This document shows positions 35,596-64,000 of a DNA stretch of 64,000 nucleotides, in pieces. Origin of the DNA: Devosia rhizoryzae (GTDB lineage: Bacteria > Pseudomonadota > Alphaproteobacteria > Rhizobiales > Devosiaceae). Below the pieces are notes generated by a model. The model was not told where the DNA came from and did no database searches. It was given only the letters and a program-made list of their open reading frames with translations. Location: assembly GCF_016698665.1 (NCBI RefSeq), contig NZ_CP068046.1, positions 2,232,001-2,296,000 of the forward strand, given 5' to 3'. The position numbers and the translations under genes are program-made. Each line of letters starts with the position of its first letter. Position 1 is the stretch's first letter.

Positions 35596-36541
35596 AGCGG
35601 ATCCTCGGATCGAGCGCGGCATAGCAGAAGTCGGCGATGATGTTCGCGGCCACGATGGCGAGCGAACCCATCATCATCAGCCCCATCAGCATGGGATAAT
35701 CCCGGCCGTTCATGCTCTCCATGAAGAGGCGTCCGATTCCCGGCCAGGCGAAAACGGTTTCGGTAATGACGGCACCGGAAATGATGGTGACGAAGTCCAC
35801 AGCGATCACGGTGACCGCTGGGATCATTGCGTTACGCAACGCATGGAGGAATAGCACGGCCTTTTCGCCACGACCCTTGGCATAGGCCGTGCGGATATAG
35901 TCCTGGTTCAGCACGTCGATCATGCCGGAGCGGATGAAGCGGCTCCAACTCGCGACAGTCGCCAGCGAGAGAACCGAAGCCGGCATGATGATGTAGCGCA
36001 GGCGGTCGAGGAAGGAGCCGTCGCCGATGGACTGGTAGCCGGCAGAGGGCAGCCAGCCGAGCTGCACGCTGAACAACAGCTGCAGCAGCAAGGCGAGCCA
36101 GAACACCGGGGTCGAAATGCCGGCAAAGCTCAAGACGGTCACGGTCCCGTCGAGCTTGGAGCCACGGCGAGCCGCGCTGATCATGCCGACAGGAACGGCG
36201 ATGATCAGGGAGATGATCATGGCGAGCCCGCCCAGCTGCAGCGTCGGTCCGAGGCGCAAGAGGATTTCGTCCAGCACTGGACGGCCGGTACGGATCGAGT
36301 AGCCCCAATCACCGACAACGATGGCCTTGAGCCACATGAAATATTGAACGGGAACCGGCTGGTCGAGGCCATAGCGCGCAGCGATCTGCGCCAGCGCTTC
36401 CTTACTGACCGACGGGTTTTCCGCATACATGTCCAGCGGGCCACCTGGCGCCAGCTGGATGATGACGAACAAAATAACCGAGATGCCCAACAAAAGCGGG
36501 ATGGCGCCGAGAATTCGGCGAATAATAAAACCTAGGCTCAT
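35588..36541 (-). CDS. Oligopeptide-type ABC importer permease (DppB-like)
   Basis: A 317-residue permease with the DppB/OppB N-terminus (FIIRRILGAIPLLLGISVILFVIIQLAPG) and the late RNAMIPAVTVIAVDFVTIISGAVITETVFAWPGIG region. About six helices. The gene lies 78 bp after the SBP gene, with a hairpin in the gap. Confidence 0.94.
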   Translation of the reverse strand: MSLGFIIRRILGAIPLLLGISVILFVIIQLAPGGPLDMYAENPSVSKEALAQIAARYGLDQPVPVQYFMWLKAIVVGDWGYSIRTGRPVLDEILLRLGPTLQLGGLAMIISLIIAVPVGMISAARRGSKLDGTVTVLSFAGISTPVFWLALLLQLLFSVQLGWLPSAGYQSIGDGSFLDRLRYIIMPASVLSLATVASWSRFIRSGMIDVLNQDYIRTAYAKGRGEKAVLFLHALRNAMIPAVTVIAVDFVTIISGAVITETVFAWPGIGRLFMESMNGRDYPMLMGLMMMGSLAIVAANIIADFCYAALDPRIRYD

Positions 36542-48161: not shown

Positions 48162-48584
48162 TCACAAAGGTTTTTGAAGAAACGTTCTGGTGCGGCCTGG
48201 TGGGAAGTTCGGAAGCGACCCAAAGGACTCGTAACCAGCGCGCTGATAGGTTCTTAGGGCATCGGGGTTGAACGTATCGATGTAGGAACCATGGCACCCG
48301 CGTTTCTGCGCCGCGGCTTCTGCAGCGGCGAGCATTCGCGCCGCAAGGTTTTGCCCGCGGTGCTGCTCTTCGACCCACAGCCACTGCACGTAGAGCCAAT
48401 CCCAGGCGGTGTAGCCGGAAATGCCGGCGACGACGATGCTGCCTGGATTGCGCAAGAACACGGCGAGCGGCAGCTTGTTGGAGGGGCCGACGTCGTCGTG
48501 ATTGAAGTCGGCGAGTGAGTTTCCAATCAGCTCAAGGTCACTGGCACTGGGTACCTCAGTCACCTCGATCGTTAGTCCCTCCAT
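48162..48584 (-). CDS. GNAT-family N-acetyltransferase
   Basis: A 140-residue acetyl-CoA-dependent acyltransferase. Motif A is LWVEEQHRGQNLAARMLAAAEAAAQKRG, with RGQNLA as the pyrophosphate-binding loop; DTFNPDALRTYQRAGYE is motif B. The start is ATG 48584, 2 bp after the anmK stop, so it is the last gene of the murein operon. It may acetylate an amino sugar or amino acid; the acceptor is unknown. Confidence 0.85.
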   Translation of the reverse strand: MEGLTIEVTEVPSASDLELIGNSLADFNHDDVGPSNKLPLAVFLRNPGSIVVAGISGYTAWDWLYVQWLWVEEQHRGQNLAARMLAAAEAAAQKRGCHGSYIDTFNPDALRTYQRAGYESFGSLPNFPPGRTRTFLQKPL

Positions 48585-48586
48585 GA

Positions 48587-49705
48587 TCAGGCCGCCAAGA
48601 CGCCGCCGATTAGCGGATGTGGCGCACCGGTCGTGGTGGGGAAGCTGATCGGCAGGCCGCGGAGCACTCGCACAGCCAGAAAAGCGAAGCATTCCGCCTC
48701 GACGGCGTCACCGCGCCAGCCGACCGCTTCGGCCGGTACGGCCTCGACCCGCGCGCGCTTATCGAGCATGGCCATGATCGCCGGGTTGTGTCGGCCGCCC
48801 CCGGACACGATCAGGCGCTGAGGACGCTGCGGCAGAAGGTCGAGTGCCTTTCCGACCGCCCCCGTGGTGAAGGCGGTGAGTGTGGCGGCGCCGTCTTCGG
48901 CGCCAAGCCCGTCGGCCATCGAAGACAAAAAGTCGAACCGGTCGAGCGATTTGGGGAAAGGTGCGGAGAGATAGCGATGGGTCAAGAGCCTGGCGAGCCG
49001 CTCTTCGTCCACCGTTCCCCGCAGGGCCATGGCGCCGTCGACATCCATGTCCCCCATGCCAAGACCTTTGACGAAGTCATTGATCGGCGCATTGGCGGGG
49101 CCGGTGTCGAAGGCAATCAGCGTATCGGCACCGTCCCAAAAGGTGACGTTGGCAACACCGCCCAAATTAAGAACGGCTGTCTTGCCGTCGGTCGCCCCGA
49201 TCTTGCGCAACAGGGCCTGGTGATAGAGCGCAGCCAGGGGAGCCCCCTGCCCTCCTGCGCGGACGTCGGCGGAGCGGAAATCGTAGGCCACCTTGATGCC
49301 GGTCAGTTCATGCATCAGCGCGCCATTGCCGAGCTGGCGCGTGGCGCCGATGCGACCCGGCTGCGGCGCGCGATGCAGCACCGACTGGCCGTGAAAACCG
49401 ATAATGCCAATGTCTTCCGGTCGCAGGCCCGCCTCGGCGACAAGGTCGAGGACGGCAGCCGATTGCGCGCGGGTCAACGCATCCTCTGCTTCGGCAAAGA
49501 TGGCAGGCTCGGCGCCGGCAAAGTTCCACTGCCGCGCTTGTGACAGGGCTTCTTGGAGCGTGTCGCGGATCGACTGCGGATAGGGCGCAAGCGTATACGC
49601 GCCAAACTCGTCGACCGTTTCGCCATCGGTGCGCAGCAGGGCGACGTCGATATTGCCATCCAGAACGGTGCCGGTCATCAGCCCCACAGCCCAGATCGGT
49701 TCCAT
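48587..49705 (-). CDS. anmK: Anhydro-N-acetylmuramic acid kinase
   Basis: A 372-residue cytoplasmic kinase that opens the 1,6-anhydro ring of anhMurNAc and phosphorylates it to MurNAc-6-phosphate. The N-terminal [17 protein letters not shown] matches the family's [47 protein letters not shown] and [10 protein letters not shown] follow in the usual order. ATG 49705 has GGGAG six bases upstream. It lies 10 bp after the serine hydrolase gene. The product is the substrate of MurQ, encoded 7 kb upstream in the same orientation. Confidence 0.95.
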
Positions 49706-49715
49706 TGTCGTCTCC

Positions 49716-50708
49716 CTATTCGGCATTGATGGCGTCGCCCACGGCGCGCCGTAGCGGCAGGATGCCGCTATCGAAATGACGCGTCGGGTGCACCCTGTTG
49801 GTCAAAAGCGTCCAGGCATGACCGCGCTCGAAATCGATCCAGAGCCCGGTGCCGGTAAAGCCGGTATGGCCGATCGTCTGGCCGGAGTTGCGTTCGCCGC
49901 CTGACCAGCCCTCATAGGGCCGCTCCCAGCCGTGGGTACGGCGACCCGAAAGCGGCGTGCGGATCAGCGCATCCGGACCGGCAGTTGTGAGCTTGCCATG
50001 TGCAAAGTCGAGCACGCTGGCGACAGTGCCGAAAAGCCCGGCATGCCCTGCCCCCTCGAGCGCCGAACAGTTGTCGTCGTGCACTTCGCCCACCAGCACC
50101 CGATGGCGCCAGTAGCAATCCTCGGTTGCGGCAGCCGTCTCGGGACCGGCGGACCAGGCAAAGCCGGCACCGGGCTCCATCTCACGGATCCACTTGTCCT
50201 CGATGCGCTCCAGCGCGATGCCAAGGAGGATGAAATTGATATCGGAATAGACCGCTGGGCCGGCGGGAAATTCGTGCTGCAGCAGGAAGGTGCGCAATAG
50301 GTCGGGATCGCGGCCATAGGTATAAAGCGGAAAGACCGCAGGATAAGGCGTCTGGTGACCGAGGCACTGGCGGAAGGTGATCTTCCTCTCCCAGTTGTCG
50401 AGATTGTAGTGCCGATAGTCGGGAATGACGCTGGTCAACGGCGCGTCGAGATCGATGCGGCCGGCTTCGGCCAGCACCAGAATGCGTTCGGTGGTGAACA
50501 GTACCTTGGTCAGCGACGCCAGATCGAACCAGGTGTCCTCGGTCATCGGACGCGACTTGGGCACGGTTTGCGCCTCACCCATGGTGCGCACGGCGCGATT
50601 GCCATCGCGGTCGATGACGCCCAGGACGCCGCCGGGAATGCGGCCGCTCTCGATAGCCTTTTCAAGATGCACGAAGGCGCGGTCGAGCTTTGTCGAAACC
50701 GATGTCAT
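49716..50708 (-). CDS. Beta-lactamase-family serine hydrolase (possible muramyl amidase)
   Basis: A 330-residue class C beta-lactamase/DD-peptidase-fold hydrolase. SLTK (65-68) is the SxxK nucleophile motif, YSD (in AVYSDINF) replaces YxN, and HTG (in [10 protein letters not shown]) replaces KTG. There is no signal peptide, so it acts in the cytoplasm and is not a resistance enzyme. A family relative, B. subtilis YbbE/AmiE, lies in that organism's MurNAc operon and removes peptide from MurNAc; the setting here suggests a similar role. ATG 50708 overlaps the upstream ATPase gene by four bases. Confidence 0.85.
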
Positions 50709-52435
50709 GCTATTTCCTCGATGCGCACGCGATGATCCTCGCCCGCTTCGCGCCATTGCGCTGCCGGCGGCTCAAAGCCAGGAGGACGCACCAGCGACGG
50801 TACCTGCGTCATGTCGACAGTGAAATGCTGACGCCGCCGCTCTACTGCCGGCACGGCAGCGATCAAGCGCCTGGTGTAGCTGTGCTGCGGCTCCGATAAC
50901 ACCGAGCGCGCGTCGCCGATCTCGACCACCTGACCGGCAAACATCACCGCAATTCGATGCGCAATGCGCTCCACCACAGCCATGTCGTGCGAGATGAAGA
51001 GGTAGGCGAGGCCAAACTCTTTTTGCAAGTCGATCAGCAGATCGAGCACCCGCGCCTGCACCGAGACGTCCAGTGCCGATACGGCCTCGTCGAGCACGAC
51101 GACATCGGGGTTCAGCATCAGTGCCCGGGCGATGCAGAGGCGCTGCCGCTGGCCGCCGGAGAACTGGTGTGGGTAGCGTGTGAGGGCGTCCTGAGGAAGC
51201 CCGACGCGGTCGAGCAAGAATGCCATGCGCTTGCGCAGGTCGGTATCGAGGCGCTGGCCATTGGCGATGGCGGGCTCCGCCAGCAAGGCTTCGACGTTGA
51301 GCCTTGGATTGAGCGAGGCGAACGGGTCCTGGAAGACCATTTGCACGGGACGCCTGGAGTGCCCTGTTCCGGCGACGATCCGTCCGCGGGTGATGGTGTT
51401 TAGACCCAGCAAGGCGCGCGCCGTCGTCGACTTGCCGCAGCCGCTTTCACCAACGATGGCTAGCGTTTCTCCGGGCACGAGATCGAAGCTGACGCCATCC
51501 ACAGCATGGATAGCGCCCTTTGGCTTGAGCCAACCCTTGCCGACAGGAAAGCGGACGACGAGGTCGTCGACCGTGACGATCGGGTTTCGCGCCGGCTTGC
51601 CTTCTTCGGCAGCGCGCACCGACTTACCGGCGGTAAAATGCGGCACGGCGCGGAGAAGGTGCTTGGTGTAGTCGTGCTGCGGATGGTCGAGCACGCGATC
51701 GGCTAGATCCTGTTCGACGGCGACGCCGTTCTGCATGACCATGATGCGGTCGGCAATGCCCGCCACGAGGCCGATATCGTGCGTGATGAAGATCATCGCC
51801 ATGCCGGTCTCGGCGCGCAACTCGGCTAGCAGCGCCATGATCTGCGCCTGCACGGTGACGTCCAAGGCGGTCGTGGGTTCGTCAGCGATAAGAAGGCGCG
51901 GGCTTGCGGCAAGCGCCATGGCGATCATGATCCGCTGGCGCATACCGCCCGAAAGCTGATGCGGATAATAGCCGAGGCGCGACTGGGCATCGGGAATGCG
52001 CACCCGCTGCAAGACGTCCAGCGTTGCCGCGCGCGCCTGGCTGCCGGTCAATCCCTTTGACAGGCGGAAGGCTTCCTCGATCTGGTCGCCTACGGTGTGC
52101 ACCGGATTGAGCGAAGTCATCGGCTCCTGGAAGATCATGCCCACGTCATGGCCGCGCACGCTCCGCAGGATCCGCTCCTCGGCAGTGCGGACATCGAGAA
52201 CGGATCCGTCGCTGCGCGTCAGGGCGATGCTGCCGCTGGTGATGCGACCGCCACCGAAATCGACCAGGCGGTTGATCGACAAGGCAGTGACCGACTTGCC
52301 CGAACCGGACTCCCCGACAATGGCGAGGGTTTCACCGGCGTCGAGGTCGAAGCTGACGCCTTTGACCACTTCATTGGCCTTCGGGTCGCGTCCGAAGCCG
52401 ACCCGCAGATCTTTGACGGAAAGCAGCTTGGTCAT
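50705..52435 (-). CDS. Oligopeptide-type ABC importer ATPase with two fused domains
   Basis: A 576-residue fusion of DppD- and DppF-like ATPases, as in YejF and GsiA. Domain 1: Walker [10 protein letters not shown] (41-49), [28 protein letters not shown]. Domain 2: [37 protein letters not shown]. YejF-type systems take up peptides including muropeptides, which fits the adjacent anmK, hydrolase and murQ. Overlaps the DppC gene and the serine hydrolase gene by four bases each. Confidence 0.94.
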   Translation of the reverse strand: MTKLLSVKDLRVGFGRDPKANEVVKGVSFDLDAGETLAIVGESGSGKSVTALSINRLVDFGGGRITSGSIALTRSDGSVLDVRTAEERILRSVRGHDVGMIFQEPMTSLNPVHTVGDQIEEAFRLSKGLTGSQARAATLDVLQRVRIPDAQSRLGYYPHQLSGGMRQRIMIAMALAASPRLLIADEPTTALDVTVQAQIMALLAELRAETGMAMIFITHDIGLVAGIADRIMVMQNGVAVEQDLADRVLDHPQHDYTKHLLRAVPHFTAGKSVRAAEEGKPARNPIVTVDDLVVRFPVGKGWLKPKGAIHAVDGVSFDLVPGETLAIVGESGCGKSTTARALLGLNTITRGRIVAGTGHSRRPVQMVFQDPFASLNPRLNVEALLAEPAIANGQRLDTDLRKRMAFLLDRVGLPQDALTRYPHQFSGGQRQRLCIARALMLNPDVVVLDEAVSALDVSVQARVLDLLIDLQKEFGLAYLFISHDMAVVERIAHRIAVMFAGQVVEIGDARSVLSEPQHSYTRRLIAAVPAVERRRQHFTVDMTQVPSLVRPPGFEPPAAQWREAGEDHRVRIEEIA

Positions 52436-53274
52436 GCTTCCCTCCTCTGGGTGCGTGGATCGAGAATGTCGCGCAAGGCGTCACCCGTGAGATTGAAGCC
52501 CAGGATCCCGAGCATGATGGTCAGGGCCGGGAAGATCATCAGCCATGGCGCGTGCTGCATGAGGTTTCGACTTTCCGCCAGCATAAGACCCAGGGAGGGT
52601 GTCGGCGGCTGCGTGCCGAGGCCGAGGAAGGACAGGCCCGCTTCGGTCAGCAGCGCCCAGGCAAGCGCCAGAGTCACCTGAACCGCCAGCGGGGCTACGA
52701 GATTGAGCAGCAGATGACGGCTCAGGATAAAGCCTTGCGAACTGCCGAAAGTGCGCGCGGCGTCGACGAAGTCGCGTTGTTTCAGCGACAGCGCCGGCCC
52801 ACGCACGACGCGGGCAAAGATCGGCGTGTAAACGATGGCGATGGCCGCAACGCTGGTCATGGTGCCAGGCCCGACGATGGCGATGATCAACAGCGCCAGA
52901 AGGATTGCCGGGAAGGCCAGCAACACGTCCATGATGCGCATGAAGATACCATCCCAGATGCCACCCCACCAGGCAGAGAGCAGTCCGATAATTGTGCCGG
53001 CAAGGGTCGCGATGCCGACCGCCGCGAAGGCAATGATCATCGACTGGCGAATGCCGATGACCAGGCGGCTGAAAGCGTCGCGGCCGAGGAGATCGGTGCC
53101 GAACCAGTAGGTGCCGCTTGGTCCCTTGAGGCGATCGATGGCGAAGAGCTTGAGCGGATCATGTGGCGTTAGGCCGAGCGACCCCATAATGGCAGCGAGG
53201 AGATAAAGCCCGATGATCGCGACACCGATGCGCCCGGAGGGATGACGGAACAAAGCAGAAGCCAACCTACCCAT
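52432..53274 (-). CDS. Peptide/muropeptide ABC importer permease (DppC-like)
   Basis: A 280-residue permease with about six helices and the DppC motif FVDAARTFGSSQGFILSRHLLLNLVAP. It shares one base with the DppB stop (TGATG) and overlaps the fused ATPase gene by four bases. Confidence 0.93.
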   Translation of the reverse strand: MGRLASALFRHPSGRIGVAIIGLYLLAAIMGSLGLTPHDPLKLFAIDRLKGPSGTYWFGTDLLGRDAFSRLVIGIRQSMIIAFAAVGIATLAGTIIGLLSAWWGGIWDGIFMRIMDVLLAFPAILLALLIIAIVGPGTMTSVAAIAIVYTPIFARVVRGPALSLKQRDFVDAARTFGSSQGFILSRHLLLNLVAPLAVQVTLALAWALLTEAGLSFLGLGTQPPTPSLGLMLAESRNLMQHAPWLMIFPALTIMLGILGFNLTGDALRDILDPRTQRREA

Positions 53275-54233
53275 CAGCGGCCCCCGATCCGGATGCGTGG
53301 GTCGAGCGCCACATAGGCGAGGTCGACAAGGAGGTTCACGACAAGGAAGTTGAAGGCAATGAACAGGATCGTGCCCTGCACCAGTGCATAATCGCGCTGG
53401 GTAATGGCATCGAGCACCAGCCGGCCAAGCCCCGGCAAGGCAAAAATCTGCTCGACGATCACGGCACCACCGAGGAGATAGCCGAATTCGACGCCGGAGA
53501 GGGTCACAACAGGGATCAGCGCGTTGGGCAAAGCATGGCGCCAGATGACGCTTCCGGGCGATGCGCCCTTGGAGCGCGCGGTGCGGACATAATCGTCGCT
53601 CAGCACATCGAGCATGGCGGAGCGGGTGATGCGCGTCACTGAAGCGGCAAAGGCAAAGCCCAATGTGATGGCTGGAAAAATCAGCTGGCCGATGCTGGCC
53701 AATGGGTCGGCGAAGAGCGGCGTGAAGGTGCCCATGGCAGGCACGAAGCCGAAAAACACTGACAGCACGTAGATGATCAGGATGCCGATAACAAAGCTCG
53801 GGGTCGACTGGCCGAGCATGGCGAGCACACGCACCAAAAGATCGCTCGGGCGCTCGTTGCGCGATGCGGCCAGCACGCCGAGCGGGATGCCGACGGATAG
53901 CGAGATCGCCATCGACATCAGCGACAGTTGCAGCGTCAGCGGGAAGCGCTCGAGCACAACGGTGAGCACGGGCTTGCCATAGATCGAGGAGATACCGAGG
54001 TCGCCGCTGAACAGACCACCAAGCCAGCGCAGATATTGCGACCAGATCGGCTGATCGATGCCGAAATAGGCCGCCAGCGTTTCGCGTTGCGCCGGGGTCA
54101 GCAGGCCTGCCTCGGTGCCGAGCATGGCCGTGATCGCGTCGCCTGGTATCAGGCGGATCGACACGAAGACCAGGATCGACACGCCGAGCAGGATCAGCGG
54201 AAAGGTCAGCAGGCGCTGGACCACATAGTTCAT
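53274..54233 (-). CDS. Peptide/muropeptide ABC importer permease (DppB-like)
   Basis: A 319-residue permease with the DppB N-terminus (MNYVVQRLLTFPLILLGVSI) and the RTARSKGASPGSVIWRHALPNALIPVVTLSGVEFG EAA-like region. About six helices. It lies 50 bp after the SBP gene, with a hairpin in the gap. Confidence 0.94.
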   Translation of the reverse strand: MNYVVQRLLTFPLILLGVSILVFVSIRLIPGDAITAMLGTEAGLLTPAQRETLAAYFGIDQPIWSQYLRWLGGLFSGDLGISSIYGKPVLTVVLERFPLTLQLSLMSMAISLSVGIPLGVLAASRNERPSDLLVRVLAMLGQSTPSFVIGILIIYVLSVFFGFVPAMGTFTPLFADPLASIGQLIFPAITLGFAFAASVTRITRSAMLDVLSDDYVRTARSKGASPGSVIWRHALPNALIPVVTLSGVEFGYLLGGAVIVEQIFALPGLGRLVLDAITQRDYALVQGTILFIAFNFLVVNLLVDLAYVALDPRIRIGGR

Positions 54234-54251
54234 AAAAACAATCCAGGAGGT

Positions 54252-54273
54252 GGGCCGGCCGCGAGGCCGACCC
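54252..54273 (-). other. Intercistronic hairpin after the muropeptide SBP gene
   Basis: GGGCCGGCC and GGCCGACCC form a 9-bp stem with one mismatch and a GCGA tetraloop, between the SBP stop and the DppB start. No T-run. Same placement as the other post-SBP hairpins. Confidence 0.65.
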
Positions 54274-54283
54274 GGGGGAGACG

Positions 54284-55795
54284 TTACTGCAGGCTGACCT
54301 TGGTCAAGCCGAACAGCGTACCGGTCGGCGATGACTCAAAGCCGGTTACCGCATTGGTCTGGGCGGTGTAGCTGTAGCCGGTTGAGAGCCAGAGCCACGG
54401 CGCCTGCTCGGCCAACCGGCTTTCAAAGGCCTGGAAGATCTCGACGCGCTTGGCCGGGTCGGTTTCCGCCTGGCCCTGCTTCATCAGGCTGTCGAGCTCG
54501 TCATCGGTGAAGTTCGAGACGTTGACGAGATTGCCGTCCTTGGTGAAGTAGCGGTTGTACATCGGGTACGGGTCGGGACGGCCGCCGTTCTGCGCCACCG
54601 CCATGTCGAAATCGCCAGCCAGCCAGCGATCCACATAAACGTTGAGTTCCATCATCTCGATCTCGAGCGTGACGCCGATTTCAGCCAGCTGCGCCTGTAA
54701 CACCTGCGCTTCGGAAGCCGCGACCGGCGGCTCGCCGGTGGCGCCGATGACGGTGGCGGTAAAGCCATCGACACCGGACTCTTCCATCAGCTGCCGGGCC
54801 ATATCGAGGTCCTGCTGGTAGCAGAAGAGATTGGCCGGGTCCTGCGCGAAGGCAGGCATGGTCAGCGGGCCGGTGACAGTGCCTTCGCCGGCGAGGGCGG
54901 CGTCGATGATCGCCTGGCGATCGATGGCACAGCTCATGGCCTGGCGGACCTTGAGATTGTCCATCGGCGGACGCGAGGGGTTGAGTTGCAGCACGTTATA
55001 GGCCAACACGCCGACGCGATTGAGCGTCAGATTGGCTTCTATCGGCACGAGCGTTGCGATCAGCGGATCGTTGAGCAGAGCAAAGTCGGTCTGGCCAGCG
55101 CGCAGCGATGCGAGGATCGCAGTTTCGTCGGGCAGCACGGAAATGGTGATGCCGTCGATCGCAAGATCGCCGCCCGCCCAATTCTCATTGGCCGAGAGCA
55201 CTTCGCGGGAATTGGGTTCCCAGCTGTCCAGCACGAAGGGACCGGAGCCAAGCGTCTCGGTGCCGACAGTGTCAGCTTCGATGGTGGAAGCAGGGACGAT
55301 GGCGGCATTGATGGTCGCCATGGCAACAAGGATCGGCACGTCGGCGGTCGATAGGTTGAAGACAACGGTCGTGTCGTCGGGCGTGTCGATGCTTGCGATC
55401 GACAAGAAGTTGGAGCGCGCGGCTGCGGCTGTTGCCTCATCGAGCAGGCGCTCGAAGGAGGCTTTGACGTCGGCCGAAGTCACCTGCTCGCCATTCGAGA
55501 ATTTGGCATTGGGATCAAGCGTGAAGGTCAGCGTCTTGGCGTCCTCGGCGAACTGCCAGCTTGAGGCGATCGCAGGAACGACATTCAGTTCGGCGTCGAG
55601 GCGCACCAGCGGCTCGTAGATCAGCTCAAGCAGGCGCAGCGAAGAAAAGGCGGTCTGCGTGTGCGGATCAAGCCCGGTTGCGTCTTGCGACCAGGCCATC
55701 CGCAGGTCTGCAGCCTGTGCCGGCATGGCGACACCGACAGACGTCAGCGCCGTGGCCAGCGCCAAGCCTGTAAGAAGTTTTCTGGAAAAGATCAT
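54284..55795 (-). CDS. Peptide/muropeptide ABC importer substrate-binding protein
   Basis: A 503-residue periplasmic binding protein of solute-binding family 5. The start is ATG 55795 with GAGG 8 bases upstream; the signal peptide is MIFSRKLLTGLALATALTSV and onward to PAQA. The mature part starts ADLRMAWSQDATGLDPHTQ and keeps the family's TLDPNAKFSNGEQVTSADVKASFERLL order. The reading frame stays open upstream for another 117 codons into a nagZ-like fragment, but the signal peptide and ribosome-binding site mark 55795 as the true start. Confidence 0.92.
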   Translation of the reverse strand: MIFSRKLLTGLALATALTSVGVAMPAQAADLRMAWSQDATGLDPHTQTAFSSLRLLELIYEPLVRLDAELNVVPAIASSWQFAEDAKTLTFTLDPNAKFSNGEQVTSADVKASFERLLDEATAAAARSNFLSIASIDTPDDTTVVFNLSTADVPILVAMATINAAIVPASTIEADTVGTETLGSGPFVLDSWEPNSREVLSANENWAGGDLAIDGITISVLPDETAILASLRAGQTDFALLNDPLIATLVPIEANLTLNRVGVLAYNVLQLNPSRPPMDNLKVRQAMSCAIDRQAIIDAALAGEGTVTGPLTMPAFAQDPANLFCYQQDLDMARQLMEESGVDGFTATVIGATGEPPVAASEAQVLQAQLAEIGVTLEIEMMELNVYVDRWLAGDFDMAVAQNGGRPDPYPMYNRYFTKDGNLVNVSNFTDDELDSLMKQGQAETDPAKRVEIFQAFESRLAEQAPWLWLSTGYSYTAQTNAVTGFESSPTGTLFGLTKVSLQ

Positions 55796-56002
55796 CTTGG
55801 AAGCCTCACCCTTGTTATGTTCGAACCAGGTCCCTCGACCTGTTCTTGTTTCCATCGGCCTTTTTAGGCGCTGGGACTGGACGATAGAAGTGGTTGTCGC
55901 CTGCGGTTGCAATCGCTGCTTGCGGACGTGCTGCCTGGTCGTACCGGGGACGTCGAGCATCGATGTGGAAGGCGATGAAATGATGTCTTTGCTTGCCGGA
56001 GC
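55796..56002. other. Region between the nagZ relic and the SBP gene
   Basis: About 200 bp that probably holds the promoter and leader of the peptide-importer operon. The minus-strand frame is open throughout but the translation (SSPSTSMLDVPGTTRQHVRKQ and beyond) resembles nothing I know. No GGAAT-N5-ATTCC operator was found here. Confidence 0.4.
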
Positions 56003-56146
56003 GCGCAAGATCTCTTCAGGAGTGCCAAGATTGCGCTTGAAGAGAAACACGCCGAGCGAGTTGGCGTTACGGAAGAAGGCCACTGCCGATGCGAAGAGTT
56101 CCTGATCAGGCATGCCGTAAGGAAGCGCGACAGGGGCTAGCGCCAT
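56003..56146 (-). pseudogene. nagZ: N-terminal relic of nagZ (beta-N-acetylglucosaminidase)
   Basis: From ATG 56146, behind a good GAGG at 7 bases, about 48 codons read like a NagZ N-terminus: the stretch AFFRNANSLGVFLFKRN followed by LGTPEEILR matches the family's AFFRexxPxGxILFKRNxxxPEQv. The match stops there; the rest of the roughly 340-residue glycoside hydrolase family 3 enzyme is missing and the in-frame continuation runs into the SBP gene. The start lies 9 bp after the murQ stop, so an ancestral murQ-nagZ operon was probably cut by a deletion that brought the peptide importer close. It could still be translated as a short peptide. Confidence 0.7.
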
Positions 56147-56155
56147 CCTTTTACC

Positions 56156-57091
56156 TCAGCTTGCCACGCGCGGCTGGTGCTGCGCGGCGGCGCGGCGCAA
56201 AAACCCGTCGGCATTGTTAAGCGCAGTCTGGCCGTCAACTGCATTCATGCCGGTCAGCGCCATGAGGATTGCGAGCTTAACGTTGTTGTTTGCGGCCTTG
56301 AGGAATTGCTCGGCAGAATCGGCAGAGCACCCGGTGGCATCGACAAGAATGCGGTGCGCACGGGCGACGAGCTTTTCGTTGCTCACCGACAGGTCGACCA
56401 TTAGGTTTTCGTAGGACTTGCCGATGCGGACCATGCTGGCCGTGGTCAGCATATTGAGCACGAGCTTTTGAGCCGTGCCCGATTTCAAGCGGGTCGATCC
56501 GGTCAGGGCCTCGGGACCGACAACGGGCGAGATGGCGATATCGGCCATGCGGGCGATAGCTGAATCCGGATTGCAGGAAAGCGCTGCGGTGAAAGCGCCA
56601 ACCCCCTGGGCATAATCGAGCCCACCGATCACGTATGGCGTGCGACCGCTGACGGCGATGCCGACAACGACGTCTTTGTCGGTAAGATCGATCTTTTCGA
56701 GGTCACGCCGGCCCTCATCACGCGAGTCCTCGGCACCTTCGATCGGGTGACGCAAGGCACGATCGCCGCCTGCGATAAGACCGACAACCATGCCTTCCGG
56801 CACGCCGAAGGTGGGAGGGCATTCCGAAGCATCAAGCACGCCGAGCCGCCCGCTGGTGCCGGCGCCCATATAGATCAACCGCCCGCCAGCCCGGAAAGCC
56901 TCGACGATCTTGTCCACGGTCGCCGCCACCTGCGGAAGAACCTTGTTCACGGCCTCCGAAACGCGCGTATCTTCCCGATTCATCGCCGCGACGATTTCGG
57001 CAGACGACATAAGGTCGATCTGCATGGTCTTGGGATTGCGGGCTTCGGAAACGAGCTGTTCGAGCTCAGCCATGAGGTTGGTTTTTGTCAT
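56156..57091 (-). CDS. murQ: N-acetylmuramic acid 6-phosphate etherase
   Basis: A 311-residue cytoplasmic etherase that removes D-lactate from MurNAc-6-phosphate to give GlcNAc-6-phosphate. It has a SIS domain with [21 protein letters not shown] (77-96; Glu90 is the likely acid/base) and [10 protein letters not shown] (118-127). ATG 57091 is preferred to the TTG at 57106. A minus-strand promoter (TTGACA, 17 bp, TAGCAT) and two RpiR-type operators lie upstream, and a murR-like gene diverges from it. It heads a run that includes the nagZ relic. Confidence 0.96.
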
Positions 57092-57118
57092 CGTGCCTAT
57101 GCTCAAATTCCATGGTCG

Positions 57119-57147
57119 ATGCTAGAAGCGATTATTCCGACTGTCAA
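57119..57147 (-). promoter_or_regulatory. Promoter of murQ
   Basis: TTGACA (57142-57147, minus strand), a 17-bp spacer and TAGCAT (57119-57124) form a good sigma-70 promoter about 28 bp before the murQ start. The spacer carries an operator half-site. Confidence 0.6.
57124..57138. promoter_or_regulatory. MurR-type operator, imperfect copy
   Basis: AGAAGCGATTATTCC (GGAAT-AATCG-CTTCT on the other strand) matches one full half-site and most of the second half of the GGAAT-N5-ATTCC pattern. It lies between the -35 and -10 of the murQ promoter, 32 bp centre-to-centre from the perfect copy. Confidence 0.5.
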
Positions 57148-57155
57148 CGAAGGGC

Positions 57156-57170
57156 GGAATATTGTATTCC
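57156..57170. promoter_or_regulatory. MurR-type operator, perfect inverted repeat
   Basis: GGAATATTGTATTCC is a perfect 6-3-6 inverted repeat in the murQ/murR divergent gap, just upstream of the murQ -35. The same pattern recurs at 58239 in front of the sugar-importer operon. The likely binder is the RpiR-family protein encoded from 57284. Confidence 0.7.
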
Positions 57171-57283
57171 TATACCGATTGGCACTTGGGCTAGTGGATG
57201 GTAAACCCTTGTGGTGCCAGTTGCATTTTGGGCTGTGTCGGCTTTAGACCTCGCCGGTCGGCGCGGATTGGGTGGAAGTTGCC

Positions 57284-58135
57284 ATGTCGGTTCTCAAAGT
57301 ACTGAGCGCTCAACTCGACAGCATGACCCAGGCTGATCGGCAGATCGCGCGATTCATTATCGATCATCCCGAAAAGATGCTGACGCTTTCGTCGGCGGCC
57401 CTGGCGGAAGTGACCGGGCGCAGCCAGTCTAGCGTTGTCAAATTCAGCCAGAAGCTCGGCTATGGCGGCTATCAGCAGCTCAAGCTCGCGGTAAACAAGG
57501 CCAAGGCCATGGAGTGGCATACGCCGGGCGGCGTGATCCATGGCACCATCGATGCGGCGGATAGCTATGTCACCATCCTCCAAAAGTTGATTGGCTCGAA
57601 GCTGCTTTCGATGCGCGAAACGCTGGCGGCGAACAACGAGCAAACCATTGATTTGGCTTCGGAAGCTCTGGTCAGTGCTCGCAAGATCCAGCTTGCGGGT
57701 GTCGGCGCATCCTCCCTGGTAGCCAAGGACTTTTCCTTCAAGCTGTTGAAACTGGGGCGGGTCGCGCTGATCGACACCGACAGCCATATCCAGATTTCCA
57801 ATGCCTCGGCGCTCAATGATGCCGATGTGCTGCTGGCGCTGTCTTATTCGGGGCGAAGCGTTGAAACGCTGCGGATTGCCGAGACTGCGAAGCAACGGGG
57901 CGCCACGGTGATCTCGATGACCGGTCTACAACCCAATCCGCTGCTCGATCTGGCCGATATCCACCTGTTTACGGTTGCCGACGAAGAGCGGGTGCGATCG
58001 TCGGCCATCACCTCGCGCGACGCCCAGCTCATGCTGATGGACATGCTGTTCATCCTGATGGTGCGGCAGCAGGCGGATGCGCATGACTTCATCCATAATT
58101 CCGAAACCGCCGTCACCGTTCTCAAGGTCCGCTGA
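57284..58135 (+). CDS. RpiR-family transcriptional regulator (MurR-like)
   Basis: A 283-residue regulator with an N-terminal HTH_6 domain (MTQADRQIARFIIDHPEKMLTLSSAALAEVTGRSQSSVVKFSQKLGYGGYQQLK) and a C-terminal SIS phosphosugar-binding domain (IQLAGVGASSLVAKDFSFKLLKLG; LALSYSGRSVETL). ATG 57284 is preferred to GTG 57272 because GGTGG lies 8 bases upstream. It diverges from murQ and precedes the amino-sugar importer operon, both with matching operators, which parallels MurR of E. coli that responds to MurNAc-6-phosphate. Confidence 0.9.
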   Translation: MSVLKVLSAQLDSMTQADRQIARFIIDHPEKMLTLSSAALAEVTGRSQSSVVKFSQKLGYGGYQQLKLAVNKAKAMEWHTPGGVIHGTIDAADSYVTILQKLIGSKLLSMRETLAANNEQTIDLASEALVSARKIQLAGVGASSLVAKDFSFKLLKLGRVALIDTDSHIQISNASALNDADVLLALSYSGRSVETLRIAETAKQRGATVISMTGLQPNPLLDLADIHLFTVADEERVRSSAITSRDAQLMLMDMLFILMVRQQADAHDFIHNSETAVTVLKVR

Positions 58136-58220
58136 CGGGCGGGGTTGAAAACCTTTCGATGAACCGATGATGACGACCAATGTGTGAGAAAGCCGCAATC
58201 CGCTTCGTGATCGGATATTC

Positions 58221-58250
58221 TTGACACAATTAAAAATCGGAATTTACTAT
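58221..58250 (+). promoter_or_regulatory. Promoter of the amino-sugar importer operon
   Basis: TTGACA (58221-58226), an 18-bp spacer and TACTAT (58245-58250) lie 67 bp before the first gene. The -10 is inside the operator at 58239-58253. Confidence 0.6.
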
Positions 58251-58253
58251 TCT
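58239..58253. promoter_or_regulatory. MurR-type operator overlapping the importer promoter
   Basis: GGAATTTACTATTCT shares the GGAAT-N5-ATTC(C/T) pattern with the perfect repeat at 57156. It covers the -10 of the importer operon, the position expected for repression. Confidence 0.62.
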
Positions 58254-58316
58254 ACCGTGGCATTTGGATAAATGCCTTAGGACCTGCGTGGGGCGGGTCT
58301 GGTGGAGGAACACTTC

Positions 58317-59378
<1,062 letters not shown>

Positions 59379-59428
59379 GGGGGTTGCACAAGACCATTAC
59401 GAGACGTTTTCAAGGGAAGGGAATCCAG

Positions 59429-60667
59429 ATGAAAACCATACTCCGCACCGGGGCTATTTTGAGCGCCGTGCTTGTTGCTGCCCCAGCCTTCGCCCAGGAC
59501 CTGACGTTCTGGAGCTGGCGCCAGGAAGACCGCGCTGCCTACGAGCAGTTCATCGACACGTTCGAGGCGGCTAATCCGGGCATCACCGTCACCTTCGAAA
59601 CCTTTGAAGCAACCAACTACAACACCATCCTCTCGACCGCCCTTGCCGGCGGCACTGGTCCGGACGTAATGATGGTGCGTGCCTATGGCGGGCTCGAGAA
59701 CGTCGCCGTCGCTGGCTACCTCGAAGAGCTGACCACCGAAAGCGTCCCTGCCCTGGCCGAGTTTGCCGCTCCCGCAATCGCTGCCGAAAGTGTTCGCGCC
59801 GACAGCAAGATCTACGCCGTCCCCTTCGCCAGCCAGACCCAGCTCGTCATCTACAACGCCACGATCTTTGCCGATAACGGCGTCGAGGAGCCACAGACCT
59901 GGGACGAGCTGATGGCAGCAAGCCAAAAGCTCAAGGACGCCGGCATCATCCCCTTTGCCAACGGCACCGCCACCGCATGGCAGAACGAGACCGTAACCTT
60001 CGGCCTCGGCTCTTCGCTGATGGGCAAGGAATTTTACGACGAACTGATGGCTGGCACAGCCGACTTCACCGACGCGCGCTTCACCTCGGCACTGACCTCA
60101 GTCAATGAACTGGCCCAGGAATACTTCCCCGATGGCTTCATCGGCCTCGACTACCCATCCGCCCAGCAGTTGTTCTCCTCGGGCATGGCCGCAATGTTTG
60201 TGGGCGGCTCCTATGAACTCGCGACCTTCAAGGCGCAAAATCCCGATATCGAACTGGGTGTCTTTGCTGCGCCGGGCGAAAATGCGGATGACGCAAAGCT
60301 TGTCGGCCTTTACTTCGACGGCGGCTATGCGGTGAATGCGGCAACGCCCAACAAGGAAGCGGCGATCACCTTCGTCAACTACCTGGCAAGCCAGGAATTC
60401 GGCCAAGCCTTTGCCAACACGCTCAACAACATCTCGACCATTCCGGGCGTCACCTTCGACAACCCTCTGCTAGCCGAAGTCAACGAGCTCAACCAGTCCT
60501 CGATCCCCTACCTGATGCTCGCTCACTTCCGTTATGGCGAACCCTCCGGTTCGGTGCTGATCCAGGCTGAAATGCAAAAGCTGTTCTCGGGTGAAACGAC
60601 CCCCGAAGCCATCGGCGAAGCGCTGACCACCGGCCTTGCCGCCTGGTACGAGCCCTTCCAGAACTAG
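59429..60667 (+). CDS. Amino-sugar ABC importer substrate-binding protein
   Basis: A 412-residue periplasmic binding protein of solute-binding family 1. ATG 59429 follows AAGGGAAGG; the signal peptide is about residues 1-23 (GAILSAVLVAAPAFA), and the mature part starts QDLTFWSWRQEDRAAYEQF. It has the family's ALAGGTGPDVMMVRAYGGLE hinge. The ligand is probably MurNAc, GlcNAc or a short amino-sugar oligomer, inferred from MurQ, NanE and the regulator. Confidence 0.92.
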   Translation: MKTILRTGAILSAVLVAAPAFAQDLTFWSWRQEDRAAYEQFIDTFEAANPGITVTFETFEATNYNTILSTALAGGTGPDVMMVRAYGGLENVAVAGYLEELTTESVPALAEFAAPAIAAESVRADSKIYAVPFASQTQLVIYNATIFADNGVEEPQTWDELMAASQKLKDAGIIPFANGTATAWQNETVTFGLGSSLMGKEFYDELMAGTADFTDARFTSALTSVNELAQEYFPDGFIGLDYPSAQQLFSSGMAAMFVGGSYELATFKAQNPDIELGVFAAPGENADDAKLVGLYFDGGYAVNAATPNKEAAITFVNYLASQEFGQAFANTLNNISTIPGVTFDNPLLAEVNELNQSSIPYLMLAHFRYGEPSGSVLIQAEMQKLFSGETTPEAIGEALTTGLAAWYEPFQN

Positions 60668-60687
60668 GCGGCCACTCCCCCCGCCTT

Positions 60688-60731
60688 GTGGGGTGGAGCA
60701 TCGGGTCCTCCGGCCCGCTTCTCCACCCCAC
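60688..60731 (+). other. Intercistronic hairpin after the amino-sugar SBP gene
   Basis: A perfect 11-bp stem (GTGGGGTGGAG ... CTCCACCCCAC) encloses 22 bases that can form an inner CGGG/CCCG pair. It fills the 85-bp gap between the SBP and the first permease. No T-run. Confidence 0.75.
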
Positions 60732-60752
60732 CCTCACCTCAGCGAGCCCTCG

Positions 60753-61673
60753 ATGCCCCACTTTCGGATGACCGGCCGCGGCCTTTGGATCACGGCACTG
60801 ATCGTGCCGCCACTGTGCTTTGTGGCTCTGTTCATCGTTTATCCGATCATCTCGGCTTTCGCTTACGCCTTCTTCGACTGGCAGGGATTGCGCCGCCTCG
60901 ACTTCGTCGGCCTCGAAAATTTCCACACCGTGCTGTTCGTTGAGCCCTATCGGAGCTGGACGCTCAACGCCTTCAAGAACAACATCATCGTCTTCTTCGC
61001 GCTGATGGTGCTGCAGAACGGGCTGGGCTTTATCCTCGCCTATGCGCTCTGGCGCGAACTGCCCGGTACCCGCTTCCACCGTATCGCGGTGTTCCTGCCC
61101 GTGGTGCTCTCGACCATCATCGTCGCTTACCTCTTCAAGCTCTTCTACCACCCGCTTTTTGGCGTCGTGAACATCAGCCTCAAGAGCATCGGGCTGGGCG
61201 AATGGGCGCAGCCCTGGCTCGGTCAATCGGGCACGGCGCTCTGGAGCATCATCGCGGCGCAGGCCTGGCATATGGTTGGCTTCCCGACCCTCGTCTTTCT
61301 CGCCGGCATGCAGCGCATCCCGGGCGAAATTCTCGATGCCGTGCGCATGGAAACCGAAAGCGAATGGGTCAAGATCACCAAGATCGTCTGGCCGCTGGTT
61401 GCGCCCAGCGCCACCATTGTTTTCACGCTGCTGTTCGTCGGCGCGTTCAACTGGTTTGAGCTGCCCTATATCATGGGCGGACTTGACGGTTCGCCCTTCG
61501 GCTCCACGGACGTGCTGGGCCTTTATTTCTACCGCACTGCCTTCGGCAACGTATCGGCCGGCCAGCAGGATTTCGGCCTTGGCTCGGCGCTGGCCGTGCT
61601 GATCTTCATCAGCATCGCCGCGATCGCTACCGTCATCACCACGCGCCTGCGCGCCCGGGAAATCCAATTATGA
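60753..61673 (+). CDS. Amino-sugar ABC importer permease (MalF/UgpA type)
   Basis: A 306-residue permease with about six helices; its EAA loop is GEILDAVRMETESEWVKITKIVWPLV, in which Glu-Ala-Ala is changed to Leu-Asp-Ala. The start is ATG 60753. It overlaps the next permease gene by four bases. Confidence 0.92.
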   Translation: MPHFRMTGRGLWITALIVPPLCFVALFIVYPIISAFAYAFFDWQGLRRLDFVGLENFHTVLFVEPYRSWTLNAFKNNIIVFFALMVLQNGLGFILAYALWRELPGTRFHRIAVFLPVVLSTIIVAYLFKLFYHPLFGVVNISLKSIGLGEWAQPWLGQSGTALWSIIAAQAWHMVGFPTLVFLAGMQRIPGEILDAVRMETESEWVKITKIVWPLVAPSATIVFTLLFVGAFNWFELPYIMGGLDGSPFGSTDVLGLYFYRTAFGNVSAGQQDFGLGSALAVLIFISIAAIATVITTRLRAREIQL

Positions 61674-62533
61674 GCGTGGCCACCACCAATTACTATGATC
61701 GCCGGGGCATACTCGGCACGCTGGGCCGCGATGGTCTCTTGCAGATCATCCTCATCGCCAACACCATCCTGATGCTGGCGCCGATCGTCATCATGGTGTT
61801 TTCGGCCTTCAAGACCACGCCACAGATCTTCCAGTCGCCGTTCGGCATTCCGGACTTTAGCCAGGTCCAGAACTTCATCAAGATCTGGTCCGAAACCAAC
61901 TTCCTGCGTTACCTGCTCAATTCGTTTCTGGTCACCGGCGCCTCGATGCTGCTGATCCTGACGCTGGGCACCATGGCCGCCTATGCCATCGGCCGCTATG
62001 CCTTTACCGGCGCGAACTTCATCCTGATGTTCTTTTTGGCCGGCCTGACGCTGCCGCTGAAGCTCGCCATCATTCCGCTTTTCATGCTGATGCGGGACCT
62101 TTCGATCCTCAACAATCAGCTCAGCCTCATCTTCGTTTATACCGCCATGGGCCTGCCCTCGACGGTCTTCATCATGACCGGCTTCATCCGCACCCTGCCC
62201 AACGAGCTCGAGGATGCCGCGCGCATGGATGGCGCCTCGGAAGCGCGCATCATGTGGTCGATCATGCTGCCGCTGGTGCGTCCCGCAATGGTCATTGCCG
62301 GCATCCAGAATGTCGTGCCGATCTGGAACGACTTCTTTTTCCCGCTGGTCTTCATCCAGAACGACAGTTTGAAGACCCTGCCCCAGGGCCTCACCACCTT
62401 CATGGGCGAATATACGACGGACTGGGGCGTGCTGTTCTCGGGGCTGACGCTGTCGGCTGCGCCGATCATCATCATCTATATCGTCTTGTCACGGCAGTTC
62501 ATTGCCGGCATGACCTCGGGCGCCATCAAGTGA
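61670..62533 (+). CDS. Amino-sugar ABC importer permease (MalG type)
   Basis: A 287-residue permease with about six helices and the EAA loop NELEDAARMDGASEARIMWSIMLPLV. It overlaps both neighbours by four bases; the next gene begins with GTG inside its stop (GTGA). Confidence 0.93.
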   Translation: MSVATTNYYDRRGILGTLGRDGLLQIILIANTILMLAPIVIMVFSAFKTTPQIFQSPFGIPDFSQVQNFIKIWSETNFLRYLLNSFLVTGASMLLILTLGTMAAYAIGRYAFTGANFILMFFLAGLTLPLKLAIIPLFMLMRDLSILNNQLSLIFVYTAMGLPSTVFIMTGFIRTLPNELEDAARMDGASEARIMWSIMLPLVRPAMVIAGIQNVVPIWNDFFFPLVFIQNDSLKTLPQGLTTFMGEYTTDWGVLFSGLTLSAAPIIIIYIVLSRQFIAGMTSGAIK

Positions 62534-63195
62534 CGTTGCCTAAAGGCCTCATCGTGTCTTGCCAGGCGCGGGCGGACAATCCGCTGCATGGCCCGCAGTT
62601 CATGGGCGCCATGGCGCTGGCCGCGCGCGACGGCGGCGCGGTGGCCATCCGCGCCAATGGGGCGGCGGATGTCGCGGCGGTCGCCAAAGCCGGATTACCA
62701 GTGATCGGCATAAACAAGGTCTTTTCGGACCGCTATCCGGTCTACATCACGCCCGATTTCGCGTCGGCTGCGGCCATCGTCGAGGCCGGGGCGGCCATTG
62801 TCGCGCTCGACTGTACGGAACGGGCGCGCGCCGGCGGGCACCCGAGCGTTTTGATCCGCCGCATCAAGGATGAACTGGGCGCCGAAGTTTTTGCCGATAT
62901 CTCGACATTCGATGAAGGCATCAAGGCTGCCGATTGGGGCGCCGACTATGTCGCCACCACGCTTTCGGGCTATACCGAAGCCACCATGCCCAAGCCGGAC
63001 GAGCCTGATCTGCGGTTGCTGGGGGCCCTGACCGCGCGACTCGCAGTGCCGGTTGTAGCCGAAGGCCGCTTCAACACGCCTGATCTCGTGCGCCAGGCTT
63101 TCACCGCCGGAGCGCATGCGGTGGTCGTCGGCACCATGATCACCAATCCGCGCGAGATCACCCGCAGCTTCGTCCAGCAGGGCGTACCCCGATGA
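62530..63195 (+). CDS. nanE: N-acetylmannosamine-6-phosphate 2-epimerase
   Basis: A 221-residue TIM-barrel epimerase that interconverts ManNAc-6-phosphate and GlcNAc-6-phosphate. Family landmarks run in order: GLIVSCQARADNPLHG, AIRANG, PVIGINKVFSDRYPVYITP (catalytic Lys), ALDCTERARAGG, ADISTFDEG, VAEGRFNTPD (catalytic Glu) and HAVVVGTMITNPREIT. The length is exactly that of NanE. It starts with GTG 62530, overlapping the permease stop; earlier in-frame codons belong to the permease in another frame. It overlaps the kinase gene by four bases. Confidence 0.93.
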   Translation: MTLPKGLIVSCQARADNPLHGPQFMGAMALAARDGGAVAIRANGAADVAAVAKAGLPVIGINKVFSDRYPVYITPDFASAAAIVEAGAAIVALDCTERARAGGHPSVLIRRIKDELGAEVFADISTFDEGIKAADWGADYVATTLSGYTEATMPKPDEPDLRLLGALTARLAVPVVAEGRFNTPDLVRQAFTAGAHAVVVGTMITNPREITRSFVQQGVPR

Positions 63196-64000
63196 AAAAG
63201 GTGCATCTGGGCCTCGATGTCGGCGGTACGGCCAGTCGCTGGGTCGCCTGCGACCCGGATGGACAGGTGGTGGCGCGTGGCAGTGTCGATGGCGCGACTG
63301 CTCATGTGTTCAACCCCGCGGAGCGGCAGCGGCTAGGCACGGCTCTGGCGCAAATGGCAGCAGCGCTCGTCGCGGAAGACCTTGTGGCGGTCGGAATGGT
63401 GGGCGGGTTGACGGGCTTCGGAAGCGCCGCAGCGGCCGAAATTGCAGCGCTTGCCAAGGAAGCGCTAGGGCTGGCGCCGGCGCAACTGCTTCTCACCGAT
63501 GATATCGTTCTCGCCTTTGCGGCGCAGTTTCAGCCGGGCGAAGGCCATCTGATTTCCGCAGGCACCGGCTCCATCGGCGTTCACGTTGCGGCAGACGGCA
63601 AGATGACACGGGTGGGTGGCCGCGGCATCCTGATCGACGATGCCGGCTCCGGCAGTTGGATCGCCCTTCGCGCCCTTGATGCCATCTACCGTGTGCTGGA
63701 CCGCACTGGGTCCTTAGCCGAGGTGCAACGGCTTGCAGGGGCGCTGTTCGCCTTAGTTGGCGGCAGCGAATGGCACCATGTGCGTCAATATGTTTATGGC
63801 GGCGACCGCGGACGGATCGGCGCCCTGGCAGTCGGCGTCGCGCAGGCGGCCGAAGCTGGCGACGCGACTGCCCTCCAGATACTGGCAGAAGCCGGCGCAG
63901 AGCTGGCAAGACTCGCGCAAGCTCTTCAGACCCGTGCCGGCGATCGACCGATAGCCCTCATCGGCGGCGTGCTGAACCTTCATGGGTCGATCGGCACTGA
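63192..64000 (+). CDS. BadF/BadG-type N-acetylhexosamine kinase (3' end cut by window edge)
   Basis: The first 269 residues of an ASKHA-fold kinase of the BadF/BadG/BcrA/BcrD family, which includes GlcNAc kinase and the GlcNAc/MurNAc kinase MurK. The phosphate-1 loop is GLDVGGTASRWVACD (near residue 7), the catalytic-Asp region LLTDDIVLAFAAQF and phosphate-2 loop ISAGTGSIGVHVAADG follow, then GSGSWIALRALDAIYR. It would phosphorylate the imported amino sugar at O6. ATG 63192 overlaps the nanE stop by four bases. The C-terminus lies beyond the window. Confidence 0.9.
   Translation, partial: MKKVHLGLDVGGTASRWVACDPDGQVVARGSVDGATAHVFNPAERQRLGTALAQMAAALVAEDLVAVGMVGGLTGFGSAAAAEIAALAKEALGLAPAQLLLTDDIVLAFAAQFQPGEGHLISAGTGSIGVHVAADGKMTRVGGRGILIDDAGSGSWIALRALDAIYRVLDRTGSLAEVQRLAGALFALVGGSEWHHVRQYVYGGDRGRIGALAVGVAQAAEAGDATALQILAEAGAELARLAQALQTRAGDRPIALIGGVLNLHGSIGT

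Follow-up and report, generated by a model that had tools for sequence, protein, structure and literature searches.

Devosia rhizoryzae carries a probable murein-recycling locus in which two ATP-binding cassette (ABC) importers and a BadF-family sugar kinase stand together with murQ and anmK. The locus lies in a stretch of 64,000 nucleotides (the window), bases 2232001-2296000 of the 3.52 Mb single-contig genome, and gene positions are given within the window unless stated otherwise. An initial annotation had listed anmK, murQ, an RpiR gene, a serine hydrolase, two ABC importers, nanE and a BadF kinase as one neighbourhood. This observation is confirmed, since all of these genes match family models, and the interpretation that was attached to it is partly supported by the comparison described below.

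The locus consists of two divergent units around the murQ/rpiR promoter region. The minus-strand unit runs in the order murQ, a family 5 solute-binding protein (SBP5), two permeases, a double ATPase, a serine hydrolase, anmK and a GNAT acetyltransferase, and the plus-strand unit in the order rpiR, an ATPase, a CUT1 solute-binding protein (SBP), two permeases, nanE and the kinase. Most adjoining genes in both units overlap by 1-4 bases or are separated by at most 50 bases; the exceptions are the intervals between SBP5 and murQ (360 bases) and between rpiR and ugpC (166 bases), while the first CUT1 permease gene overlaps by 32 bases as a product of choosing the first possible start.

On the minus strand, murQ (56156-57106) encodes an N-acetylmuramic acid (MurNAc)-6-phosphate etherase of an H. 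influenzae-like lineage (TIGR00274, 414.5 bits against a cut-off of 302). Compared with H. influenzae MurQ (4lzj), one 10-residue segment is identical and EGAED is conserved, and these we take to be the two catalytic Glu segments. The anhydro-MurNAc kinase gene anmK (48587-49726; NF007141, 472.4 bits against 352) is the only PF03702 match of the genome. The serine hydrolase (49716-50708) is of class C beta-lactamase/S12 type (PF00144, 110.9 bits) with SLTK, YSD and HTG motifs; its best named family is PBP4B at 52 bits, far under the cut-off of 385. Its gene overlaps the double-ATPase gene by 4 bases, with a likely start at 50708, and it is probably cytoplasmic because no signal peptide is seen from that start in the sequence. 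We consider it a likely muropeptide amidase or peptidase. The peptide-type importer comprises the fused double ATPase (50705-52435; GsiA 645 and YejF 547 bits, both under the cut-offs), permease 2 of Opp/Gsi type (52432-53274; PF00528), permease 1 (53274-54233; PF00528, Opp2B 325 bits against 350) and SBP5 (SBP_bac_5; 54284-55795, likely start 55795; PF00496, 276 bits), which has a signal-peptide-like start and whose PDB relatives include AgaA, YliB and dipeptide- and murein-peptide-binding proteins.

On the plus strand, the RpiR/MurR-type regulator (57272-58135) has PF01418 and SIS domains. Among NCBIfam models it matches PRK11557 best (233 bits) and MurR next (161 bits), and as neither cut-off is reached, the earlier description "MurR-like" is loose. 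There follow a UgpC/MalK-type ATPase (58302-59378; PRK11650, 443.7 bits against 432), the CUT1 SBP (59429-60667, likely start 59429), CUT1 permeases 1 (60636-61673; PF00528, first in-frame start, the true start probably being later) and 2 (61670-62533; PF00528), and nanE for N-acetylmannosamine (ManNAc)-6-phosphate 2-epimerase (62545-63195; PRK01130, 241.6 bits against 189). The MurK/NAGK-like kinase gene begins at 63192 and continues beyond the window end at 64000 to 64175, so that its last 175 bases lie outside (PF01869, 96 bits against 31.5); the genes downstream are unrelated.

A palindrome common to both operons

Between murQ and rpiR lies an exact palindrome of the form GGAATA-N3-TATTCC (GGAATATTGTATTCC, 57156-57170), a putative operator of the two divergent promoters. 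A weaker second putative copy (GGAATTTACTATTCT, 58239-58253) adjoins TTGACA before the CUT1 operon. Relatives of the CUT1 operon were collected in one scan with 14 aligned SBPs, which gave 140 relatives, and counts on named loci refer to the best 80 of the 140. Loci were grouped by record title (L084, L116 and L120 by similarity), and gene presence was scored by tblastn above 80 bits in flanks of the CUT1 operon that end 10 kb from the SBP. Many of these loci are closely related, and the counts are not independent events.

The murQ-rpiR palindrome occurs with at most one mismatch in 28 of 31 loci, and the remaining three (L078, L084 and L088) were positive on re-scan. Between rpiR and ugpC, a copy with at most two mismatches occurs in 28 of 29 rows including the window, against 0.11 expected from base shuffles, and in L074, the only row without it in the first scan, the site was found on re-scan. 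A single D. indica contig stands behind both L047 and L090 (same length, identical MurQ) and is counted twice; without the double the figures are 27/30 and 27/28. The motif columns of the first and second copy carry 1.96 and 1.93 bits, the left flanks, where TTGACA or its complement lies along with half sites, 1.38 and 1.01 bits, and the right flanks 0.25 and 0.20 bits. Nineteen loci without that rpiR were also scanned. L138 and L146 were dropped because none of their matches to ugpC exceeded 350 bits; in 16 of the 17 left, even the best site before ugpC has at least three mismatches. Within the D. rhizoryzae genome there is one exact match (57156) and two with one mismatch, which mean little because a reversed-pattern control also gives two.

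The RpiR protein would bind this palindrome, whose conservation marks out the likely regulon and suggests that a sugar phosphate is the inducer. A chance neighbourhood of two unrelated operons would agree with the divergent units and their separate promoters, but the conserved adjacency, the common operator and the exchange of MurQ lineages described next make it the most improbable of the explanations weighed here.

MurQ lineages and the linked kinase

For the CUT1 SBP, the named relatives belong to Devosia, with up to 99% in D. aurantiaca. Among 40 Devosiaceae loci, nanE and badF are each present in 38 and murQ in 36, and among the 29 with full flanks, nanE and badF are found in all and murQ in 28. 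All three genes are present in each of the five Rhodobacterales loci and in the single loci of Chelativorans and Pararhizobium mangrovi. The murQ genes involved are of more than one kind. In a tree of 61 MurQ proteins, the window type forms its own clade, separate from the type found in L050 and set on a long branch (1.62 changes per column). The score of 349 bits for the window type against H. influenzae MurQ, compared with 216 for the L050 type, suggests that the window-type murQ was laterally acquired. The two lineages occur together in none of the 44 loci with murQ.

The window-type gene is also found in an operon that encodes a MurA paralogue, a BadF-family kinase, MurQ, SBP5, permeases, ATPase, hydrolase and AnmK, with a divergent rpiR, in Neorhizobium and a relative (L168, L169) and in two f23 genomes (L048, L049). 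The other MurQ lineage stands directly behind the kinase at the badF-murQ end of the CUT1 operon in 11 loci (Chelativorans, five Rhodobacterales and some Devosia). Searches of the hybrid loci of Devosia found neither the kinase and MurA of the first operon nor the murQ of the second; the Devosia locus looks like a hybrid in which each module is without what the other supplies. The simplest reading would be that the kinase and MurQ of both modules do the same jobs. Furthermore, in two Microvirga genomes the badF that stands beside murQ, the serine hydrolase gene and anmK belongs to the window clade (GGRG motif; tree support 100/99), and their CUT1-nanE operon lies elsewhere, without badF. As far as sequences can tell, the comparison supports a link between kinase and MurQ, and the module exchange makes the function of kinase and importer testable through simple swaps.

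Some side observations concern these operons. A MurA paralogue stands beside a BadF-family kinase in 11 loci (L048, L049, L053, L055, L056, L057, L168, L169, L146, L147 and L149), in 8 of which murQ adjoins the pair. The paralogue at L048:11618-12874 scores 538 bits with TIGR01072 (cut-off 392.7), and the GGCAIG motif is kept in both copies checked. In L074 and L152, murQ matches as two abutting pieces, as from a frameshift or sequencing error. The GNAT gene of the window (48162-48692, minus strand; PF00583, 42 bits), directly after anmK and conserved from about residue 41, recurs near anmK/murQ in seven of the 80 named loci (L097, L104, L105, L107, L109, L122 and L152) and also in L048, L049 and L173; as a speculation, it might re-acetylate de-N-acetylated murein sugars.

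The kinase itself has a BadF-family fold closest to MurK and NAGK, although its matches to MurK, NAGK and S. tokodaii hexokinase tie in Z and are not separated. Over aligned structures it is 23% identical to Clostridium acetobutylicum MurK (8zo3) and 13% to Tannerella forsythia MurK. Residue Arg144, at the lactyl-pocket position of MurK Leu135, is present in 30 of 30 linked kinases, whereas 20 of 20 others have Trp or Tyr; at this position T. forsythia MurK has Leu and C. acetobutylicum MurK Trp. Published MurK residues were also tried as a guide to the substrate. Gly142-Gly143 is present at the small lactyl-pocket residues S133/P134, but Asp103, next to the catalytic Asp, takes the place of Thr94 of T. 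forsythia MurK, where C. acetobutylicum MurK itself has Asn; no substrate was assigned. The retrieved part of one report names the Thr94 position crucial and states that MurNAc binding cannot be recognised from sequence (PMC10465942).

These residues bear on the version of the initial annotation, in which the CUT1 system is a dedicated importer of MurNAc, or of N-acetylglucosamine (GlcNAc)-MurNAc, and the kinase is MurK. The kinase-murQ linkage, the common operator and the Arg144 pattern speak for it, but Asp103, the linkage to nanE and the scarcity of murQ beside the operons of Neorhizobium, Microvirga and Bosea speak against it, and we hold it to be possible and on balance somewhat doubtful. 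Beyond the earlier proposal that an importer followed by a kinase feeds MurQ, the comparison strengthens the kinase-MurQ link and the case for a common regulon, while MurNAc is one candidate for the CUT1 sugar.

The predicted regulon and the sugar of the CUT1 importer

Gene content, the common conserved palindrome, the MurQ lineage exchange and the kinase-MurQ linkage, as they emerge from comparison, are most readily read as one RpiR-controlled regulon that draws on two ABC importers to catabolise bacterial cell-wall fragments, and we consider this probable. The substrates of all its proteins are predicted ones. The minus-strand importer would take up muropeptides or their peptides, and the serine hydrolase would split the peptide off in the cytoplasm. 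AnmK would phosphorylate anhydro-MurNAc, and MurQ would cut MurNAc-6-phosphate to GlcNAc-6-phosphate and lactate. The CUT1 transporter may import an amino sugar, which the BadF-family kinase would phosphorylate along with cytoplasmic MurNAc, and NanE would turn any ManNAc-6-phosphate into GlcNAc-6-phosphate. NagA and NagB, encoded elsewhere, would complete the route.

The regulon would yield GlcNAc-6-phosphate and would need the nagA/nagB locus, 0.6 Mb away, to finish the route. There, nagA is above cut-off at genome position 1648601, in company with a nagB-like gene that has a SIS domain, a GntR regulator gene and the second murQ-like gene of the genome; in this locus (1648601-1652614, L044) no ABC importer or BadF kinase was recognised. 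A true YejB is encoded at genome position 358190, separate from the window importer, and the route is therefore not the self-contained one first proposed. A YejB-like permease match also occurs in the window at about 35585-36409 on the minus strand, with one internal TGA; it may be a broken gene or a pair of abutting frames. The genome has two GH3 genes. For the AmgK/MurU route, there is a candidate at genome position 2948210 (149 bits against 370), the best MurU match of the genome reaches 117.6 bits against a cut-off of 250, which none of 14 control genomes reaches either, and the genome has four APH-family genes, no one of which adjoins a MurU-like gene.

Several observations weigh against the regulon as proposed. 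The CUT1 operon often stands without an adjoining murQ: among nine Neorhizobium/Rhizobium loci, nanE and badF are in none and murQ is in one (absent in 8/9); among 20 Microvirga loci, nanE is in all and badF and murQ in none; among four Bosea loci, nanE and badF are in three and murQ in none. When ten genomes were probed for murQ elsewhere (nine without murQ in the flank, one with), all ten held a full-length match of at least 272 bits. In full-flank Devosiaceae loci, the serine hydrolase gene is in the flank of 13/29 and anmK in that of 5/29, the anmK of a window-like locus being cut off by the 10-kb limit, but in several loci the peptide importer is a different one. Beside the CUT1 operon of Rhizobium CF080 (L111) stand window-type murQ and the hydrolase gene, with no BadF kinase found in the flanks, and D. 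oryzisoli (L115, L170) has CUT1-nanE-badF with rpiR, and murQ with a peptide importer elsewhere. The second operator copy of the window carries 2 mismatches, Asp103 stands where T. forsythia MurK has Thr, the kinase stays below the NagK_SO3507 model (NF046058, 78.1 bits against 370), and NanE is not required for MurNAc. As a separate observation, the Neorhizobium vignae locus L112:8252-18116 has an SBP1-type importer after a HAD hydrolase, followed by TPR, YcaO and TfuA genes and not by nanE-badF.

The explanation that differs from a dedicated MurNAc importer in one step, the sugar of the CUT1 importer, assigns the CUT1-nanE-kinase operon to ManNAc and GlcNAc (or chitobiose-like or teichoic-acid-linker sugars) and leaves murein fragments to MurQ, AnmK and the hydrolase alone, with co-regulation because both branches yield GlcNAc-6-phosphate. 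As a nearly constant CUT1 partner, nanE suggests such a sugar: it is present in 29/29 full-flank Devosiaceae, 4/4 Rhodobacterales and 18/18 Microvirga SBP loci, whether murQ is there or not, and the SBP fold is closest to chitin-oligosaccharide binders. However, nanE is absent from 9/9 Neorhizobium/Rhizobium loci, and neither the kinase beside murQ, the hydrolase gene and anmK in Microvirga nor the murQ of one lineage or another beside the operon in 36/40 Devosiaceae loci is explained. We regard this assignment as a serious contender, a little short of even chances. An attempt to read the substrate from the SBP sequence was dropped, since R31 and R84 do not discriminate, being just as invariant in the ten nag-locus SBPs of 27-32% identity.

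The presence of nanE might also recall sialic acid catabolism. This we reject as very improbable: no nanA reaches the cut-off genome-wide (best 110 bits against 382), and the locus has no nanA or ROK-type kinase. Returning to the cell-wall fragment regulon, a bolder version of it, which we put forward tentatively and with more doubt than belief, would make the CUT1 system the first of ABC type to import MurNAc (or a GlcNAc-MurNAc/ManNAc mix from foreign, including Gram-positive, walls). The kinase would then be a MurNAc kinase of a third kind, with Arg144 reading the lactyl acid, and the regulon a scavenger of bacterial debris, fused from two MurNAc modules that had evolved independently and of which each gave up the gene that its partner provided.

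Comparison with known systems

Among the best-ranked matches in open-licence PMC literature, titles and abstract beginnings hold no description of this type of locus. The MurNAc pathways of E. coli and B. subtilis use the phosphotransferase system (PTS) permease MurP, MurQ, MurR and YfeW or AmiE. The window resembles them in that genes for MurQ, a regulator of RpiR type and a serine hydrolase from that superfamily lie next to one another. In place of a PTS, it carries ABC importers and a kinase of the BadF family; as the initial annotation held for the locus, no PTS gene was seen, and in a search for PF02378, the one PTS family covered, the whole genome gave no EIIC match, with 7 of 14 control genomes positive. 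The MurNAc transporter of T. forsythia (MurT) is not known to be of ABC type.

Within its own order, the locus can be set beside two systems. Agrobacterium tumefaciens, according to the retrieved part of one report, imports muropeptides by YejBEF-YepA and recycles MurNAc anabolically through AnmK-MupP-AmgK-MurU (PMC9790009). The window would share with YejBEF-YepA the import of muropeptides by an ABC system, the substrate here being a predicted one, but its permease 1 reaches 121.6 bits against the YejB cut-off of 445, and the route would be a PTS-free, catabolic one for MurNAc in the order of A. tumefaciens. The nag locus of Hyphomicrobiales (ugpC-Gfo/Idh-permeases-SBP-murQ / BadF-GntR-nagB-nagA; L051, L062, L063, L065 and others) likewise brings together an ABC importer, a BadF kinase and a murQ-like gene. 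However, its SBPs are 27-32% and its kinases 21-27% identical to those of the window, and it has other murQ clades and another regulator.

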